Origin: Ectopseudomonas khazarica
GTDB lineage: Bacteria; Pseudomonadota; Gammaproteobacteria; Pseudomonadales; Pseudomonadaceae
Assembly: GCF_004521985.1 (NCBI RefSeq)
Contig: NZ_SBHZ01000012.1
Coordinates: 62,001 to 126,000, forward strand
Length of the DNA: 64,000 nt
Direction of reading: 5' to 3'
Shown: one piece after another, positions 3,974 through 56,602 of the stretch
How the letters are laid out: the number at the start of each line of letters is the position of its first letter
How positions within the stretch are numbered: position 1 is the first letter of the stretch
Program-made: the position numbers and the translations under genes
The notes under the pieces: generated by a model
Told to the model about the DNA's origin: nothing
The model's input: the letters and a program-made list of their open reading frames with translations, nothing else
Databases searched by the model: none

Positions 3974-4678
3974 TCAATCCAGGCCCAGGCGAATACCCTG
4001 CAGGCGTTGTTCGATCAACGGCGTGAGCAGGGCGAAGCAGTCATCCGGGCTCAGTTGCACCTGAGAGGACTCGATCAGCTCGGTCTGCAGGCGCTCGATC
4101 AGGGCCTGCAACGGCGGCGCTTGCTGCTGGCTCAGCAGGCGCTCGCAGAGAAAGCGCAGCTGCATCTGCAGCCCCGGCGGACAGCGCTCGTAGCTCGCTG
4201 CGCGAACCGCCAGGCCGCGCAGGCGAGAGAGGTCCTCGAGCGAGCGGCAGGCTTCGCCCAGGCCGCGGATGGCAGGGTGGTCGTGGCGATAGAGGCGGTC
4301 TTCGAGCTGTTCGATCACCGCCAGCAGGGCTTCTATCAGGCGGCAATGCGCGTCGAAGTCGCCGGGCTTGCGCCGTAGCTGCGGCCAGTCCTGCTGCAGG
4401 GCTGGCAGCTGCAGGCTGGCGCCGGGCCAGTTCAGCCACAGGTCGTCGAGCTGCCGGGCCACTCGCGTGCGCTGCTCGAGTTTCCCGGCACCCTGCATGG
4501 CTCCCAGCCCGCGATGCAGCTGCAGTGCCTGGAGCAGGTCCAGGCAGCGCTGCGCGACCTGCCTGTGCTGCTGCAGGCGTGCCGACTGCTGGCGGGACTC
4601 CTGGCGCTTAGTCAGCCAGAAGCTCAATGCCAGCAGGGTGATCAGCAGGGTGACGGCGAAGAGGGTGGCATGACTCAT
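3974..4678 (-). CDS. Single-pass membrane protein of unknown function
   Basis: I do not recognise this gene with confidence. The start at 4678 (MSHATLF) puts one transmembrane helix at the N-terminus (about residues 3-20). It is followed by a soluble helical region rich in Leu, Gln and Arg. The segment LLQALQLHRGLGAM resembles the start of nitrate/nitrite-sensing (NIT) helical domains, which have a similar hydrophobic-x-RGLSA pattern; this is only a resemblance. An upstream in-frame start exists at 4783 but would add a low-complexity extension before the membrane helix. The gene lies just upstream of asrA on the same strand. The ribosome site is weak. Confidence 0.6.
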   Translation of the reverse strand: MSHATLFAVTLLITLLALSFWLTKRQESRQQSARLQQHRQVAQRCLDLLQALQLHRGLGAMQGAGKLEQRTRVARQLDDLWLNWPGASLQLPALQQDWPQLRRKPGDFDAHCRLIEALLAVIEQLEDRLYRHDHPAIRGLGEACRSLEDLSRLRGLAVRAASYERCPPGLQMQLRFLCERLLSQQQAPPLQALIERLQTELIESSQVQLSPDDCFALLTPLIEQRLQGIRLGLD

Positions 4679-4928
4679 GGAGGCTCGTGGGGGGCGGCGT
4701 GCAGGTTCATCCTTCGATGAAGCAACTCCCCTGCCAGCCGCAGAGGGGGCGGATTCCGGCCGTACGCGCCTGTCGCACTGCACGGAAATGGAGCAGGCGA
4801 CCGCGCCGGGGTGCCTGATGGTGCCTGGGTTGCTAAAGGTGCAACCTTGTTGCTGATGGGTGGTTGCGGCGTTTTCTTGCGGAAAAGAGTAAAGTGCAAC
4901 CCTTGTTTCGTGCTGTCAGTCTGCCGTT

Positions 4929-5678
4929 ATGTTGCAAGCCCGTGTGATCCGCCTGGATGAACAGGCCCATGAACATGCCCATGATCATCATCAACTGGTG
5001 ATGTCCCTGGTCGGTCGCGCCGAGTTCGAGGTCGGTGGCCGTGGTGGGGAGGTCTGCCGCATGCGTGCCTGCCTGGTGCCCGGGGATGCGGCTCACCAGT
5101 TCGCCGGCATGGGCGAGAATCGCATGCTGATTCTCGACCTGGACGAGCAGGACACGCCCAGCGAGGACCTCGAACTGCTTCACCGCCTGTTCGAGAAACC
5201 CTGCTACCCGGCGCTCGATGTCGACTTCCAGAACCTGCTCAATTACGCCGGCTCCGAGCTGGAGCGCTACGGCAGCGACTCGATCCTGGCGCGTTCGATC
5301 GGCGGCGTGCTGCTGCGTGCGCTGCACCTGCGGCTGTTCGGCGAGCAGCGTCGTCCGGCACAGGGCGCGCTGGACCTGCAGCGCCTCGATCACTACATCG
5401 GCGAGCACCTGGCGCGGCGCATCAGCGTTGCCGAGCTGGCCCAGGTGATGTGCCTGAGTCCGAGCCACTTCCATGCGCAGTTCAAGGACAGCGTCGGCCT
5501 CACCCCGCACCAGTACCTGCTCAAGACCCGTCTCGACCGGGCTGCCCGCCTGCTGCGCGAGAGCAACCTGCCGCTGGTACGGGTCGCCGAAGAGTGCGGC
5601 TTCTCCAGCCAGAGCGCCCTGACCACCGCGATGCGCCGCTACCTGGGGTTGACGCCCAAGCGGGTACGTGCCGCCTGA
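4929..5678 (+). CDS. AraC-family transcriptional regulator
   Basis: A 249-residue regulator. The N-terminal cupin-like half has a His-rich stretch (HEHAHDHHQL, near residue 20) and the C-terminal half has the two helix-turn-helix motifs of AraC/XylS proteins (ISVAELAQVMCLSPSHFHAQFK, then VRVAEECGFSSQSALTTAMRR). It is divergent from the asrA-icp strand and converges on the RNA-repair genes with only 7 nt between stop codons. In PAO1 the AraC regulator beside asrA is PruR (proline utilisation) as I recall. PruR identity is possible but not shown, and the proline symporter in this window is 22 kb away. Confidence 0.85.
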   Translation: MLQARVIRLDEQAHEHAHDHHQLVMSLVGRAEFEVGGRGGEVCRMRACLVPGDAAHQFAGMGENRMLILDLDEQDTPSEDLELLHRLFEKPCYPALDVDFQNLLNYAGSELERYGSDSILARSIGGVLLRALHLRLFGEQRRPAQGALDLQRLDHYIGEHLARRISVAELAQVMCLSPSHFHAQFKDSVGLTPHQYLLKTRLDRAARLLRESNLPLVRVAEECGFSSQSALTTAMRRYLGLTPKRVRAA

Positions 5679-5685
5679 AGTCACC

Positions 5686-6843
5686 TCACCTTCTGCGCTC
5701 CGCGTCCTGTGTGCAGTAGCGTACCCGGTGCGCCTCGGTCGGTAGCGGTACTTCCCATTTGAACAGCATGCGCCGCAGCGCTTCATTGCTCAGGCTGGTA
5801 TCGCGCTGCCTGTTGCGCTGGAAGATGGTCGCTTCGGGCATCTCCAGATAGACGATCTCGACCTGAGCCTGGTAGGCGTAAAGCAGGTCGAGTGTCTTCT
5901 TGCGCATCTGTGCCGACAAGTGGGTGGAGTTCCATACGAACGGGCGTTGTTCGCGCAGGAGCGCCTTGGCCTGTTCGATCGCATGGTGCGCTGCGGCGCC
6001 TTCGTTCTCGCCGTGGCGCAGGCCCAGCTGCTGGCGTGCGTCATCGAAGGACACCACCGGCAGCTGCGGATGCTGCTGCTCGACCCAGGTATTCTTTCCG
6101 CTGGCGGGCATGCCGGACAGCATGATCACCTGCGAGCCCGAGGGCTCATGCAGGGCGTAGTCCGGATGCACGCGGGCGCCACGCAGGTACTGCACGCGGG
6201 TGTAGTCGTCGGCATAGGCACGCGGGCCGTGCAGGCAGCCTTCCTCGGCGGCGAGCTGGCGAAACAGTTCGATGTCGTCGAGTACGGCGGCCTTGCCGAT
6301 GTAGTCGCGGCCCTGCATGTCGGCCTCGGCCACTGCGCAGAGCATCCACACCGGTAACTCCCACGACAGCTTGTGAAGGATGAACTCGGCGCTGTGACCG
6401 CTACGCGAATCGCCCAGGGCGAAGAACGGCAACTGGTGCACAGCGATGATCCGACAGATCTGCTCGCGCCACTCGAATGGTACGCCCGCGCGCCAGAGCA
6501 GCAGGCGCGTGTCCACTGCGCCGCGCCGCGAGTGGCCGGGTTGGCCGATGCGTCCGCTTTCGCTGTCGATCACCGTGGTATCCGGTTTGGCGATGTCGTG
6601 CAGCAGGGCGGCGAAGAACAGCACGAAGCGTTGCGCGTCAGTCGCTTGCTGGTACGCGCGCTGCTCGAGCAGCGCCTCGACCACCATGCAGGTGTGAATC
6701 CAGACATTGCCCTCGGCATGGTAATGGGCGTCCTGCGGGGTTTCGGCCAGCCGGCCGAGGGCCGGAATGGCCGCGAGGCAGGCTGCCGGGTCGAAGCGCT
6801 GGCCCGCGTCGGGCACCAGGCGCTGCAAGTGTTGAATGTCCAT
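5686..6843 (-). CDS. HD-Pnk: HD-domain 2',3'-phosphoesterase fused to 5'-OH polynucleotide kinase
   Basis: A 385-residue end-healing enzyme. N-terminal HD domain: His50, His82-Asp83 (LLHDIAKPD) and His136, the expected metal ligands. C-terminal P-loop kinase: GMPASGKNTW at 244-253 with Lys250, acidic VSFDDAR near 267, and Arg343 in the QRNRQRD lid region. This matches HD-Pnk, known from Runella slithyformis (Shuman laboratory), which removes 2',3'-cyclic or 3'-phosphate ends and phosphorylates 5'-OH ends. The start at 6843 has AGGGAG upstream; the longer ORF start is rejected. Only one base separates the RNA ligase stop from this start, so the two are probably translated together. Function is inferred from domains and partner. 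Confidence 0.85.
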   Translation of the reverse strand: MDIQHLQRLVPDAGQRFDPAACLAAIPALGRLAETPQDAHYHAEGNVWIHTCMVVEALLEQRAYQQATDAQRFVLFFAALLHDIAKPDTTVIDSESGRIGQPGHSRRGAVDTRLLLWRAGVPFEWREQICRIIAVHQLPFFALGDSRSGHSAEFILHKLSWELPVWMLCAVAEADMQGRDYIGKAAVLDDIELFRQLAAEEGCLHGPRAYADDYTRVQYLRGARVHPDYALHEPSGSQVIMLSGMPASGKNTWVEQQHPQLPVVSFDDARQQLGLRHGENEGAAAHHAIEQAKALLREQRPFVWNSTHLSAQMRKKTLDLLYAYQAQVEIVYLEMPEATIFQRNRQRDTSLSNEALRRMLFKWEVPLPTEAHRVRYCTQDAERRR

Positions 6844-6844
6844 C

Positions 6845-7717
6845 TCAGTAACTCCCTGAGTAACCCTCACGCGGGCCGTTCCAGTCCAGGGCCAGGCGAG
6901 GGGAATAAAGATCGGCCAGCGTGGCCAGCTGGTTGGCGATGAAAGGCTGGCTGGCGTGGTGCTGGTCGGCGTCGACGATCGCCTGAACGAAGTCCTGGCG
7001 AACCCATTTGAGGCGAGAACGGGTGCAGTGCTCGTCTTCCACCTTGAGGTACAGTCCTTCCATCAGGCTTGAGCGATCGCATTGACGCCAGGCACGAGGC
7101 AGGTCCAGTCCTTCACGCGCCACCGCTGCCTCGAAGGTTTCCTGCCAGATTGCGGACTTGGCCAGCGAGTGGCCGACCAGCTCCAGCAGGTCTTCCAGGC
7201 GCCTGGGCGCCGGCCCTTCATGCAGTACCGGTACCGACAGCACCGGGCCGTCCTGCAGCAGGTAGCGCCTTGCTGCGGTGGAGAGGTACAGCCCCTGGGC
7301 GCGGTCCCAGATGTCGAACTCACAGAAATAGTGCGGCAGCTGGTCGTAGAACACCGAGTGCTTCTTGTGCAGCCATTCGCCGAACAGCACGTAACGGTCT
7401 TCCAGGCGTTCCAGTAACCAGCGTTCGTGGGCCACGGCCCACTGCTTGAACAGATTGAACTGCCGCTCGCGACCGCCGCCGGTAAGGTAATGGCCGCGCG
7501 ATTGCAGCAATAGCTCTCCGGCGCTGGAAAAGCTGATGCCGGCGTTGGCGCCATCGAGTTTTTCCTCGACCACCAGCCACTGGCCATGCAGTTCGTGGTA
7601 ACGCACCTGGTCGGCGTTGCTGTCGCCAGGCTGCAGTCGCGAGCCTTGCAAATGCGGTGTGCGTGGGTACTTGTGCAGTTCGAGGTTGTGCAGATTGCAC
7701 GATGAATCCATGTTCAT
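6845..7717 (-). CDS. RNA ligase (covalent nucleotidyltransferase), partner of HD-Pnk
   Basis: A 290-residue ATP-dependent RNA ligase of the RNA_ligase (Rnl2-like) family. All nucleotidyltransferase motifs can be placed: motif I EEKLDGAN with adenylated Lys53, motif Ia QSRGHYL, motif III LFGEWLHKKHSVFY with Glu114, IIIa YFCEFDIWD, motif IV MEGLYLKVE with Glu220, and motif V RLKWVR with Lys237. The start ATG at 7717 has a perfect AAGGAG seven bases upstream. It precedes HD-Pnk on the same strand by one base, giving a complete heal-and-seal pathway. A structured leader sits between its ribosome site and the next gene upstream. The natural RNA substrate is unknown; damaged tRNA is the usual suspect. 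Confidence 0.88.
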   Translation of the reverse strand: MNMDSSCNLHNLELHKYPRTPHLQGSRLQPGDSNADQVRYHELHGQWLVVEEKLDGANAGISFSSAGELLLQSRGHYLTGGGRERQFNLFKQWAVAHERWLLERLEDRYVLFGEWLHKKHSVFYDQLPHYFCEFDIWDRAQGLYLSTAARRYLLQDGPVLSVPVLHEGPAPRRLEDLLELVGHSLAKSAIWQETFEAAVAREGLDLPRAWRQCDRSSLMEGLYLKVEDEHCTRSRLKWVRQDFVQAIVDADQHHASQPFIANQLATLADLYSPRLALDWNGPREGYSGSY

Positions 7718-7744
7718 GGGTTTTCTCCTTGGGTATCAGGGAAA

Positions 7745-7831
7745 ACCGACGACAGGACTCGAGCAGCAGGGCGTGGGAAGCGTCCGCGCAGGTGCGCGGG
7801 CAGCCATCAGGCGCGATGGACCGTCGTCGGT
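7745..7831 (-). ncRNA. Predicted structured leader RNA of the RNA-repair operon
   Basis: On the operon strand an 87-nt segment is closed by perfect 9-bp complementarity (7823-7831 with 7745-7753, extendable by two G-C pairs past a bulged base). Inside are two hairpins: a 5-bp stem CCATC/GATGG (7804-7808 with 7815-7819) and a 6-bp stem CCGCGC/GCGCGG with a 4-nt loop (7784-7789 with 7794-7799). About 25 nt remains single stranded on the ribosome-site side. The 9-base word GGTATCAGG is directly repeated at 7732-7740 and 7829-7837. It could be a cis-regulatory leader or a processed RNA. Folding was done by eye with no energy calculation or homologue comparison. Confidence 0.4.
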
Positions 7832-7958
7832 ATCAGGCGAGTTGGCAGGTGCAGGGCACGTCGTTCACCACTTGGGAGATAGGTTGAATAGCGAAGGGCG
7901 CGCATTCAAACGCCAACCTGGCCGGTTGTCAAGCACGGCCAGGGGCGAGAAGGGCGTT

Positions 7959-8546
7959 TCAGGCGTAGTTCTGCGGGCTCAGCTTGCGTTCGATCAGCTC
8001 GATGAGGATGTGCAGCACCTTGATGTGCAGTTCCTGCACACGGTCGGCGAAGTCGCCGCCGGGGGCGCAGATGCACACGTCGGCCAGGCCTTCCAGCAGC
8101 GAGCCGGGCTTGCCGGTCAGGGCGATCACCTTCACGCCGAGCGCCTTGGCGGCTTCGGCGGCCTTGACCACGTTGGGGCTCTTGCCGCTGGTGCTGATGG
8201 CGATCAGCACGTCGCCTTCGCGGCCGTGCGACTCGATGTAGCGCGAGAAGATGAAGTCGTAGCCGAAGTCATTGGCCACGCAGCTGATGTGGCTGGGGTC
8301 GCTGATCGACACGGCGGCGATGCCGGGGCGGTTCCTGCGGTAGCGTCCGGTCAGCTCCTCGGCGAAGTGCATGGCGTCGCACATCGAGCCGCCATTGCCG
8401 CAGGAGAAGGCCTTGCCCTTGTGCTCGAAGCTCTCGACCAGCAGCTCGGCAGCACGCTGGATGTTGGCCAGGGTCTGTTCGTTGCCGAGGAAGGCTTCCA
8501 GCGCGCGCTGGGCTTCCTGCAGGCTGTTGCGGATATGTTCGATCAT
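7959..8546 (-). CDS. gmhA: Phosphoheptose isomerase, enterobacterial GmhA type
   Basis: SIS-domain enzyme converting sedoheptulose 7-phosphate to D-glycero-heptose 7-phosphate for LPS inner core synthesis. Starting at MIEHIRN the protein is 195 residues, close to E. coli GmhA (192), and shares with it the run SCGNGGS[16 protein letters not shown], [18 protein letters not shown], and [14 protein letters not shown]. The DiaA-like gene usually annotated gmhA in P. aeruginosa (PA4425) has a different sequence as I recall, so this is a separate lineage. The longer start at 8591 lacks a ribosome site. It lies upstream of the RNA-repair operon, on the same strand, with a 240-nt gap. Confidence 0.85.
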
Positions 8547-8710
8547 GGCTGGTCTTGGAACCTCTTTGGCAGTTTCGCGAGCCAGAGCCATGCAAGGCGA
8601 AAGCTGGCGAGAAAGCGGAGTTTACGCGTTGTAAATGGGCATTTCGACCGGGCTGGCGCTTCAGCCGGTGCAACACGGCAGGGCTGAAGCGCAGCGGATT
8701 TCAACAGGTT

Positions 8711-10000
8711 TCAGGGCAGCTCGGGGCTCGAATAGAACGCGGTCAGGACCTTCACCAGGTGATCCAGGTCATGGCTGCCGGCGAGTTCGCGAACCGAGTG
8801 CATGGCGAAGGTGGGCAGGCCGATATCGACCGTACGCACGCCCAGCTGGCTGGCGGTGATCGGGCCGATGGTCGAGCCGCAGCCCATGTCGCTGCGCACC
8901 ACGAAACTCTGCACCGGTACTTCGTTCTCCAGGCACAGGTGGCGGAAGAAACCGGCAGTCTCGCTGTTGGTGGCGTAGCGCTGGTTGCTGTTGATCTTGA
9001 TCACCGGGCCGGCGTTGAGCTTCGGGCCGTGGTTGCCGTCGTGCTTGTCGGCGTAGTTCGGGTGTACGCCATGGGCGTTGTCGGCCGAGACCAGCAGCGA
9101 GCGCTGGATGGTGCGGACGAAGCCCTCGCCTGTCGGCAGGACGCGGCGCAGTACCTGTTCGAGGAAGGGGCCGTCGGCGCCACAGGCCGAGCAGGAGCCG
9201 ACCTCTTCGTGATCGGTGCACACCAGTACGCAGGTTTCTTCGTCGCTGGAGTCGATCAGCGCCTGCAGACCGGCGTAGCACGACAGCAGGTTGTCCAGGC
9301 GCGCACTGGCGATGAAGTCCTGGTTGAGGCCGACGACGGCGGCGCTCTGGGTGTCGTAGAAGCTCAGCTCGTAGTCGAGCACCGCGTCCGGGTTGAAGTC
9401 ATGCTCCATGGCCAGCTGTTCGGCGAGCAGGGCGCGGAAGTCGGCGGTCTCGCTGCTGGCGAGCTGGGCGAGAATCGGTGGCAGCTCGGTCTGCGGGTTG
9501 ATCGCCCAACCCTGGTTGGCCTCGCGGTTGAGGTGGATGGCCAGGTTGGGGATCACGGCGATCGGCTGGTAGAAGTCGATCAGCTGGCTTTCCACCTTGC
9601 CGTCGCGCCGGTAGGTGACGCGGCCGGCCAGCGACAGGTCGCGGTCGAACCAGGGTGCGAGCAGGGCGCCGCCGTAGACCTCCACGCCGAGCTGGAAGTA
9701 GCCCTGGCGCTGTAGCTCCGGGCTGGGTTTCACCCGCAGGCAGGGGCTGTCGGTGTGGGCGCCGACCAGGCGCAGGCCGCCTTCGAGGGCCGGGCGCTTG
9801 CCCAGCTTGAAGGCGATGAGCGACGAGTCGTTGCGGGTCACGTAGTAGCGGCCGCCGGTCTCGAGATGCCAGGTCGCGCGTTCGTCCAGGTGGCGATAAC
9901 CGGCCGCTTCCAGGCGCATGGCCAGGCTGGTGGTCGCGTGGAAAGGCGTGGGAGAGGCGTTGAGAAAGTCGATCAGCCCGATATTGAGTTCTTCGCGCAT
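8711..10000 (-). CDS. apeB: M18-family aspartyl aminopeptidase
   Basis: Zinc aminopeptidase of the M18 family, 429 residues from MREELN at 10000, where GGAG lies about six bases upstream. Metal-site motifs are visible: [14 protein letters not shown] (His, Asp), CTDHEEVGS (catalytic Glu and ligand Glu), [12 protein letters not shown] (Asp ligand), and the C-terminal [10 protein letters not shown] (His ligand). The reported longer reading frame adds a low-complexity Arg/Ser-rich stretch and is not used. It likely trims N-terminal Asp/Glu residues from peptides in the cytoplasm. Its P. aeruginosa counterpart is PA3247, in the same neighbourhood as the min genes. Confidence 0.92.
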
Positions 10001-56526: not shown

Positions 56527-56602
56527 GGGTCGTTAGCTCAGTTGGTAGAGCAGTTGGCTTTTAACCAATTGGTCGTAGGTTCGAATCCTACACGACCCAC
56601 CA
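56527..56602 (+). tRNA. tRNA-Lys (UUU), CCA encoded
   Basis: A 76-nt cloverleaf: acceptor GGGTCGT/ACGACCC, D-arm AGCTCAGTTGGTAGAGC, anticodon stem TTGG/CCAA with loop CTTTTAA (anticodon TTT), T-arm with GTTCGAATC, discriminator A and encoded CCA. In PAO1 the corresponding site is an integration hotspot between queC and nadA; here nadA follows directly. Confidence 0.98.

Follow-up and report, generated by a model that had tools for sequence, protein, structure and literature searches.

A putative trp-like translational attenuator in the leader of an RNA ligase and HD-Pnk cassette

How is an RNA repair cassette switched on when no regulator gene lies beside it? The question is raised by a locus of Ectopseudomonas khazarica, within a stretch of 64,000 nucleotides (RefSeq assembly GCF_004521985.1, contig NZ_SBHZ01000012.1, positions 62,001 to 126,000; here, the window), where two genes on the minus strand encode a predicted RNA ligase and HD-Pnk. 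The two enzyme families heal 2',3'-cyclic phosphate and 5'-OH ends and then seal them. An earlier note on this DNA described the genes. The control region treated here (7718 to 7932) lies outside the coordinates of that note, directly upstream of the ligase, in the 241 bases that separate it from gmhA (7959 to 8591, minus strand). In attenuators of the trp type, the position of a ribosome on a short leader open reading frame (ORF) selects the fold of the RNA, an early stall giving the ON state and completion the OFF state. We propose that the cassette is probably held off by a trp-like attenuator, acting on translation, in its leader.

In the proposed mechanism, a promoter would make the cassette mRNA constantly, and the leader would consist of an eight-codon mini-ORF followed by three competing segments, of which b can pair with either a, just past the mini-ORF, or d, which holds the ligase Shine-Dalgarno sequence and start codon. 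A ribosome that finishes the mini-ORF would cover a while at the stop codon, leaving b free for d, and the ligase Shine-Dalgarno sequence and start would be hidden (OFF). Were ribosomes to load and then stall within the first five codons or so, a would stay free and a:b would form ahead of the transcription of d, opening the ligase start (ON), with HD-Pnk expressed via translational coupling to the ligase. The trigger would be a general failure of elongation, for example when tRNAs, the expected substrates of the enzymes, are cut by anticodon nucleases. As a prediction from comparison and folding, the switch itself (mini-ORF and alternative pairing) is well supported; its polarity and trigger we infer.

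The mini-ORF was compared in 81 loci, that is, the window and the best 80 of at least 486 ligase relatives confirmed by an alignment-based scan of genome contigs. It is present, with a Shine-Dalgarno-like sequence, in 78 of them, with a length of 8 codons in 68 loci, 9 in nine and 6 in one, a start codon of GTG (46), ATG (31) or TTG (1) and a stop codon of TAA (41) or TGA (37). The three loci without it are L027, L081 and L053, whose contig begins within the leader. Four mini-ORFs missed by the scan were placed by hand (L074, L080, L092, and L097), and the picking filtered residues 2 and 3 (P/S/L/F, then R/C/V/Y/F/H/D/L), so that the conservation of these residues is partly built in. From the 78 loci, 28 non-redundant leaders were drawn, less than 85% identical to one another. 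An unfiltered test, requiring an ORF of 6 to 9 codons and a Shine-Dalgarno match of at least 4 bases in the right place, was passed by 26 of the 28, while 0.05 would be expected by chance per 28 dinucleotide-shuffled leaders. The mini-ORF stop falls 1 to 4 bases upstream of a CCGACGAC-like segment in 25 leaders, and a different sequence follows it in L080, L091, and L100.

The encoded peptides vary widely (VPCTCQLA in the window, VPRFFAITC, MPVVNTLS, and MSRRARSC elsewhere), and therefore selection seems to act on translation of the mini-ORF more than on its peptide. Their composition is biased: Pro is second in 23 of the 28 (partly from the picking filter), D, E, G, K, M, and W are all absent from the 200 leader residues (they make up 27% of ligase residues; K and D are present in a few mini-ORFs outside the 28), and Cys is six-fold enriched (7.5% versus 1.2% in ligases). 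Such features would suit an arrest-peptide attenuator, in which, as in erm or tnaC leaders, the nascent chain would respond to a small molecule (an antibiotic, for example). Nevertheless, residues 3 to 8 differ widely between clades, and avoidance of G by an unstructured leader may account for part of the bias, given that G occupies 3% of third codon positions (34% in ligases). Besides, a ribosome arrested at the last codons would cover a and, by folding, yield the OFF state, all of which makes an arrest peptide unlikely. Nor were the repeated regulatory codons of trp-type leaders found in these 28 mini-ORFs (a mean of 6.1 different residues per peptide of ca. 7). Since the eight codons need several different tRNAs and contain no single-codon runs, we propose that the trp-like switch reports general elongation failure; the mixed codons, together with the end healing and sealing of the enzyme families, point to tRNA damage as the possible trigger.

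Downstream of the mini-ORF, a and b are separated by 65 nucleotides in the window and by ca. 50 to 200 across the 28 leaders. In each leader, we searched the region between a and d for the best partner of a and, separately, of d, and compared the results with shuffles. The two best partners overlapped in 23 of 28 leaders (9.8 expected; P = 1.9e-7), and b as described, near the ligase, was the best partner of both in 21 (7.0 expected; P = 1.4e-9), while in L080 and L082 the shared partner segment is a different one. Taken alone, a:b beat shuffles (p <= 0.05) in 19 leaders. In a swap test, own partners gave -15.8 kcal/mol for a:b, against -13.4 when swapped, and -12.1 against -9.5 for d:b, with 0 of 20,000 permutations as good in either case. 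When only one leader per clade was used (13 clades, grouped by hand and not from a tree), the p value for a:b was 0.004 and 0 of 50,000 permutations were as good for d:b. Segment b was found by pattern in the swap test and in the locked-helix and ribosome-position tests below, and independently of a pattern in the partner search. The sequences co-vary on both sides, as CCGACGAC/GTCGTCGG, CCAACGA/TCGTTGG, CTGACGA/TCGTCAG, and CCGACAACG/CGTTGTCGG for a and b and as GGTTTTC/GAAAACC, GCAATC/GATTGC, GTCTTCGG/CCGGAGAC, and GTTCGTT/AACGAAC for b and d; in Wohlfahrtiimonas, the bases after b pair with d as TTTATTC/GAATAAA. These leaders show two of the features by which translational attenuators are recognized, namely, a conserved short ORF with its own ribosome-binding site and two pairings that exclude each other, one hiding the Shine-Dalgarno sequence of the next gene, here the ligase.

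The run of at least four T that follows b in the Pseudomonas, bee-symbiont, and Wohlfahrtiimonas leaders would also fit transcription attenuation, where a:b and the T-run form an intrinsic terminator and finishing ribosomes prevent termination, so that the polarity is reversed. However, judged by eye, a T-run directly after b is missing in 10 of the 28 leaders (L063, L069, L071, L072, L074, L076, L077, L078, L080, and L093), and the distance between a and b also speaks against a terminator. The run is explained by its pairing with the purine-rich ligase Shine-Dalgarno sequence, a pairing that co-varies, and we hold termination to be rather unlikely.

Control of translation by ribosome position was consistent with folding tests, which were static and assumed a ribosome footprint of ca. 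30 bases. In the 21 eight-codon leaders, a:b formed before d was transcribed in 20 to 21 cases with the ribosome at codons 1 to 4, in 17 at codon 5, in 9 at codon 6, in 1 at codon 7, and in none with the stop codon in the A site (15 without a ribosome). A ribosome at the mini-ORF start opened the ligase start in comparison with one at the stop (p = 2e-4). Along similar lines, locking a:b left the ligase start more open than masking a did in 25 of 28 leaders (means of 0.44 and 0.27; p = 5e-6), the values for the window being 0.34 and 0.14. Equilibrium folding of the whole leader, for which, as in the comparison of ribosomes at the mini-ORF start and stop, an incorrect ligase start was used in one case (L078), mostly closes the ligase start (mean unpaired, 0.33). 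That would be in line with simple insulation, in which the leader holds the ligase at a constant low level, free of any signal, but a constant block needs no conservation of two alternative partners of b, and insulation is thus very improbable.

The leader is linked to the ligase. A covariance model of the Pseudomonas leader, built from 17 sequences, matched 24 of 398 Pseudomonas genomes, and a ligase (E <= 1e-30) was found in 22, with the leader just upstream in all 22. Of the two extra matches, one (G382) is a truncated relic without an adjacent ligase and the other (G391) arose by chance within another gene. The relic (G382:C1:2538979-2539052) has promoter-like bases and no mini-ORF, which points to an earlier loss of the cassette. 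The idea of a free-standing small RNA was dropped, because in the 398 genomes the leader stands only beside the ligase, barring these two matches. Constant attachment in Pseudomonas (with the relic as the one exception) would equally be expected if the leader were a direct sensor or substrate of the ligase or HD-Pnk, bound or re-sealed in an autoregulatory loop to which the mini-ORF would be secondary. This is quite improbable, given that clades differ in the inner hairpins that lie between a and b, while the mini-ORF keeps its Shine-Dalgarno sequence, start, length, and stop. Ligases that we regarded as another clade were excluded from the leader counts (Pseudomonas loci L016 to L021, with 31 to 39% identity, and hits elsewhere with E of 5e-31 to 8e-41).

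The titles of the best 80 of the at least 486 relatives bear 19 genus names: Pseudomonas, the bee symbionts Gilliamella, Frischella, and Snodgrassella, Wohlfahrtiimonas, Thorsellia, Pectobacterium, Pantoea (one record), Janthinobacterium, Undibacterium, Comamonas, Delftia, Acidovorax, Diaphorobacter, Pelomonas, Ideonella, Chitinimonas, Parachitinimonas, and Uliginosibacterium. Leaders and ligases of Gilliamella and Frischella (gamma) and Snodgrassella (beta) are nearly identical (L043 to L060, L067, and L073), which suggests either that they were exchanged in the gut of bees or that contigs were mis-binned. Around 27 loci (one titled Pantoea, the other 26 being titled Pseudomonas or the window itself), we found 18 groups of upstream and 20 of downstream flanks; promoter, leader, and the two genes thus behave as a portable unit. 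Two P. aeruginosa plasmids carry the ligase (21 plasmid records had any match among 72,556), and the leader was identified in one of the two (L105). Close relatives are rare, with 2 of 369 genomes in a class-level and 5 of 398 in a phylum-level draw (E of 1.5e-140 or lower; the own genome is counted in each). Among the four other close relatives from these draws, three have the leader and none was seen in 420 bases of L131. Viral contigs held 62 ligase relatives (best, 50% identity), 12 of which were scanned with a narrow pattern that revealed no leader, the other 50 being uninspected.

Several results weigh against the attenuator. At equilibrium, folding favors b:d even when no ribosome is present, closure being alike in ribosome-free leaders and those with a ribosome at the stop codon (p = 0.78), and in the full leader of the window a:b reaches at most 0.03. 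Before d is made, a:b hardly forms without a ribosome in 9 of the 28 leaders (index, <0.35). The equal closure speaks against a purely thermodynamic switch, and the ON state would need co-transcriptional kinetics or an early ribosome. As for the pairings, d:b alone beat shuffles (p <= 0.05) in only 9 leaders, b as described was not best for both segments in 7 of 28 (L072, L078, L080, L082, L083, L093, and L100), and the leaders of Delftia, Diaphorobacter, and Acidovorax have a weak a:b (-8 to -10 kcal/mol) and those of the Pelomonas group one with a mismatch. The leader is lacking in Thorsellia (L081), and in L027 (Pseudomonas sp. PA15(2017), ca. 4858 to 4884) the stop codon TGA is changed to TGG. 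Three plasmid relatives (62, 49, and 45% identity) lack such a leader in 420 bases and, together with L131, indicate that it is not universal among relatives. As a side observation, the L027 frame, having lost its stop, continues through a and is a natural mutant of the switch.

In 13 Pseudomonas relatives, the leader is conserved nearly as well as the ligase protein. From the TTGAC element, invariant in an alignment of 14 leaders, to the ligase start, mean column identity was 74% (13 sequences including the window), versus 81% for the ligase (11 sequences). The promoter pattern matched 6 of the 28 leaders, all from Pseudomonas except L060, and none of the other 22; we therefore claim a putative sigma-70-like promoter for the window and its close relatives only. 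Rfam 15 (window 4500 to 9000 and five relatives) returned only one hit each, far under the threshold of the family, to Retro_dr1 and SNORD94. A tRNA-like reading of 7718 to 7860 was dropped: the only tRNA that ARAGORN reports in the window is a tRNA-Lys at 56527, Rfam gave nothing relevant, and the stem is accounted for by a:b and b:d. A 9-base direct repeat (GGTATCAGG) flanks the stem in the window and is not kept in the relatives compared. The leaders of L083 (Pectobacterium) and L082 (Comamonas) have an extra, well-conserved stretch between a and b (GCAGCCTCG..GGCGCA..TGCGCC..GGCTGCGGTAC) that is absent from Pseudomonas leaders.

Regarding the genes themselves (Table 1), the place given for them in the earlier note was confirmed, on the minus strand, by ORFs and Pfam matches. 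The spacing is exactly one base, as had been stated, between the ligase stop (6845 to 6847) and the HD-Pnk ATG (6841 to 6843), which we took as the start although the mechanical ORF begins at GTG 6870. The ligase scores 127 bits (E of 9.6e-37) to Pfam RNA_ligase PF09414 (cut-off, 27; residues 48 to 239, the nucleotidyltransferase core), and HD-Pnk matches AAA_33 (E of 4e-20) and HD (E of 6e-5). The catalytic motifs from Lys53 to Lys237, presumably motif I (KxDG) to motif V, hold up in an alignment of 22 ligases, where K53, D55, N58, R74, E114, F134, D135, E220, G221, K225, and K237 are invariant. For HD-Pnk, both sites had been described as intact, and in 85 proteins (the window and 84 loci) this was true of the HD site, with H50, H82, D83, H104, and D175 kept in all 85 and H136 in 84. 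The P-loop Lys is likewise kept in all 83 proteins that reach its position, but the loop is not the textbook GK[ST]: the residue that follows, usually Ser or Thr, is Asn in 49 and Asp in 32, giving a Walker A motif of GxPAxGK[N/D] in 81 of 83 (window position, 6091 to 6114), and the loop is therefore specific to the family.

In each of the 84 loci examined (80 genome contigs and 4 plasmids), HD-Pnk lies downstream of the ligase and shares its strand, with a gap of ca. 500 bases in three (L085, L102, and L103). The HD-Pnk gene is cut short in two loci, by a contig end in L058 and by a premature stop in L086; the latter copy (Pectobacterium sp. CFBP8739, 5903 to 6448) ends after ca. 181 residues, before the kinase part, and retains the ligase and leader. 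The structure model of the ligase is of modest confidence (mean predicted local distance difference test [pLDDT], only 66); its best PDB match is T4 Rnl2 (2hvr; E of 1.8e-6), with template modeling (TM) scores of ca. 0.4, and its remaining top matches are RNA ligases too. HD-Pnk gave a confident model (93) that resembles polynucleotide kinases and, in a different stretch, a tRNA-processing enzyme, which at the sequence level is matched in its HD part. NCBIfam has no family for the ligase, its HD-Pnk matches were all below cut-off, and PADLOC matched neither protein. With the conserved catalytic residues, the model matches, and the pairing in 84 of 84 loci, the best reading is the one offered by the earlier note, a predicted RNA heal-and-seal pair that is a member of a known pair.

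Table 1. Predicted features of the cassette and its leader, in positions of the window
Feature	Position	Strand	Basis
-35 hexamer TTGACA, sigma-70-like promoter	7927..7932	minus	sequence
-10 hexamer TTGAAT, 17-base spacer	7904..7909	minus	sequence
Mini-ORF Shine-Dalgarno sequence GGTGA	7865..7869	minus	sequence comparison
Leader mini-ORF, 8 codons, GTG CCC TGC ACC TGC CAA CTC GCC TGA	7833..7859	minus	comparison of 81 loci, chance control
Segment a (ACCGACGACGG), starting two bases past the mini-ORF stop; pairs with b	7821..7831	minus	folding, swap and partner tests
Segment b (CTGTCGTCGGT); alternative partners are a or (with the next bases) the ligase ribosome-binding site	7745..7755	minus	folding, swap and partner tests
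Segment d, with the ligase Shine-Dalgarno sequence (GGAG, 7725-7728) and the bases as far as the start codon; pairs with 7737-7753	7717..7731	minus	folding, swap and partner tests
Rnl2-type ATP-dependent RNA ligase, 290 amino acids	6845..7717	minus	ORF, Pfam, alignment, structure model
HD-Pnk (N-terminal HD phosphoesterase and C-terminal polynucleotide 5'-kinase), 385 amino acids	5686..6843	minus	ORF, Pfam, residues, model

That no Rtc genes adjoin the cassette was also borne out (rtcA lay outside the search). The cassette is not an Rtc operon, that is, an rtcB with an adjacent rtcR; the own genome has two RtcB matches and one RtcR, all away from it. One RtcB and the RtcR-type regulator are at 16 to 21 kb of contig C3 (C3:16350-20591), ca. 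48 kb from the cassette (C3, 68 to 70 kb), and the second RtcB is on another contig (C19:30365-31396). Thus, the genome holds RNA repair genes besides the cassette.

The leader proposes a testable answer for the trigger of the ligase and HD-Pnk pair. In a broader view, to which we give slightly less than even weight, it would be a general, ribosome-operated sensor of RNA damage, in which the eight-codon leader samples many tRNAs together and failure to complete it, after any cut in tRNA or rRNA, opens translation of the heal-and-seal genes; the system, with no protein regulator, would have spread through beta- and gammaproteobacteria as a self-contained unit. If this were true, RNA repair would join the functions under leader-ORF attenuation and the ribosome itself would be the damage detector. 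The output of the leader could be read with a reporter, and agents that halt the mini-ORF would reveal the damage that the cassette answers.

Among the literature matches listed (titles and abstract openings, with most subscription papers outside the coverage), there was no account of control of the ligase/HD-Pnk pair or of an RNA ligase under a leader ORF. The HD-Pnk of Runella slithyformis reportedly joins, as here, an HD phosphoesterase and a 5'-kinase in one chain; to our knowledge, its regulation has not been described, and the P-loop of the present family has Asn or Asp where GK[ST] is usual. With trp-type attenuators, the leader shares the short ORF, the folds chosen by the ribosome, and, as proposed, the ON state upon an early stall and the OFF state upon completion. 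In contrast, its codons are mixed, with no single-amino-acid runs, its OFF helix would hide a Shine-Dalgarno sequence in place of forming a terminator, and the genes controlled belong to RNA repair and not to biosynthesis. Translational attenuators of the erm type are alike in that a leader ORF governs the Shine-Dalgarno sequence of the next gene via alternative pairing; here, however, there are three competing segments and not four, no conserved arrest peptide was seen in the leaders compared, and the predicted OFF state is that of a terminating ribosome. The RtcR-controlled rsr-yrlBA-rtcBA repair operon is switched on by tRNA damage, RtcR binding tRNA fragments with cyclic phosphate ends (PMC7790460), whereas for the cassette, which has no adjacent regulator gene, we propose control through the mRNA leader. 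The RtcB2-PrfH module ties an RNA ligase to ribosome damage, with 16S rRNA cut by colicin E3 and a release-factor homologue; no leader switch was met in the available part of that source (PMC9223846). While the gene pair is already known, what is new here is the proposed leader control, a known kind of control on an unusual target.

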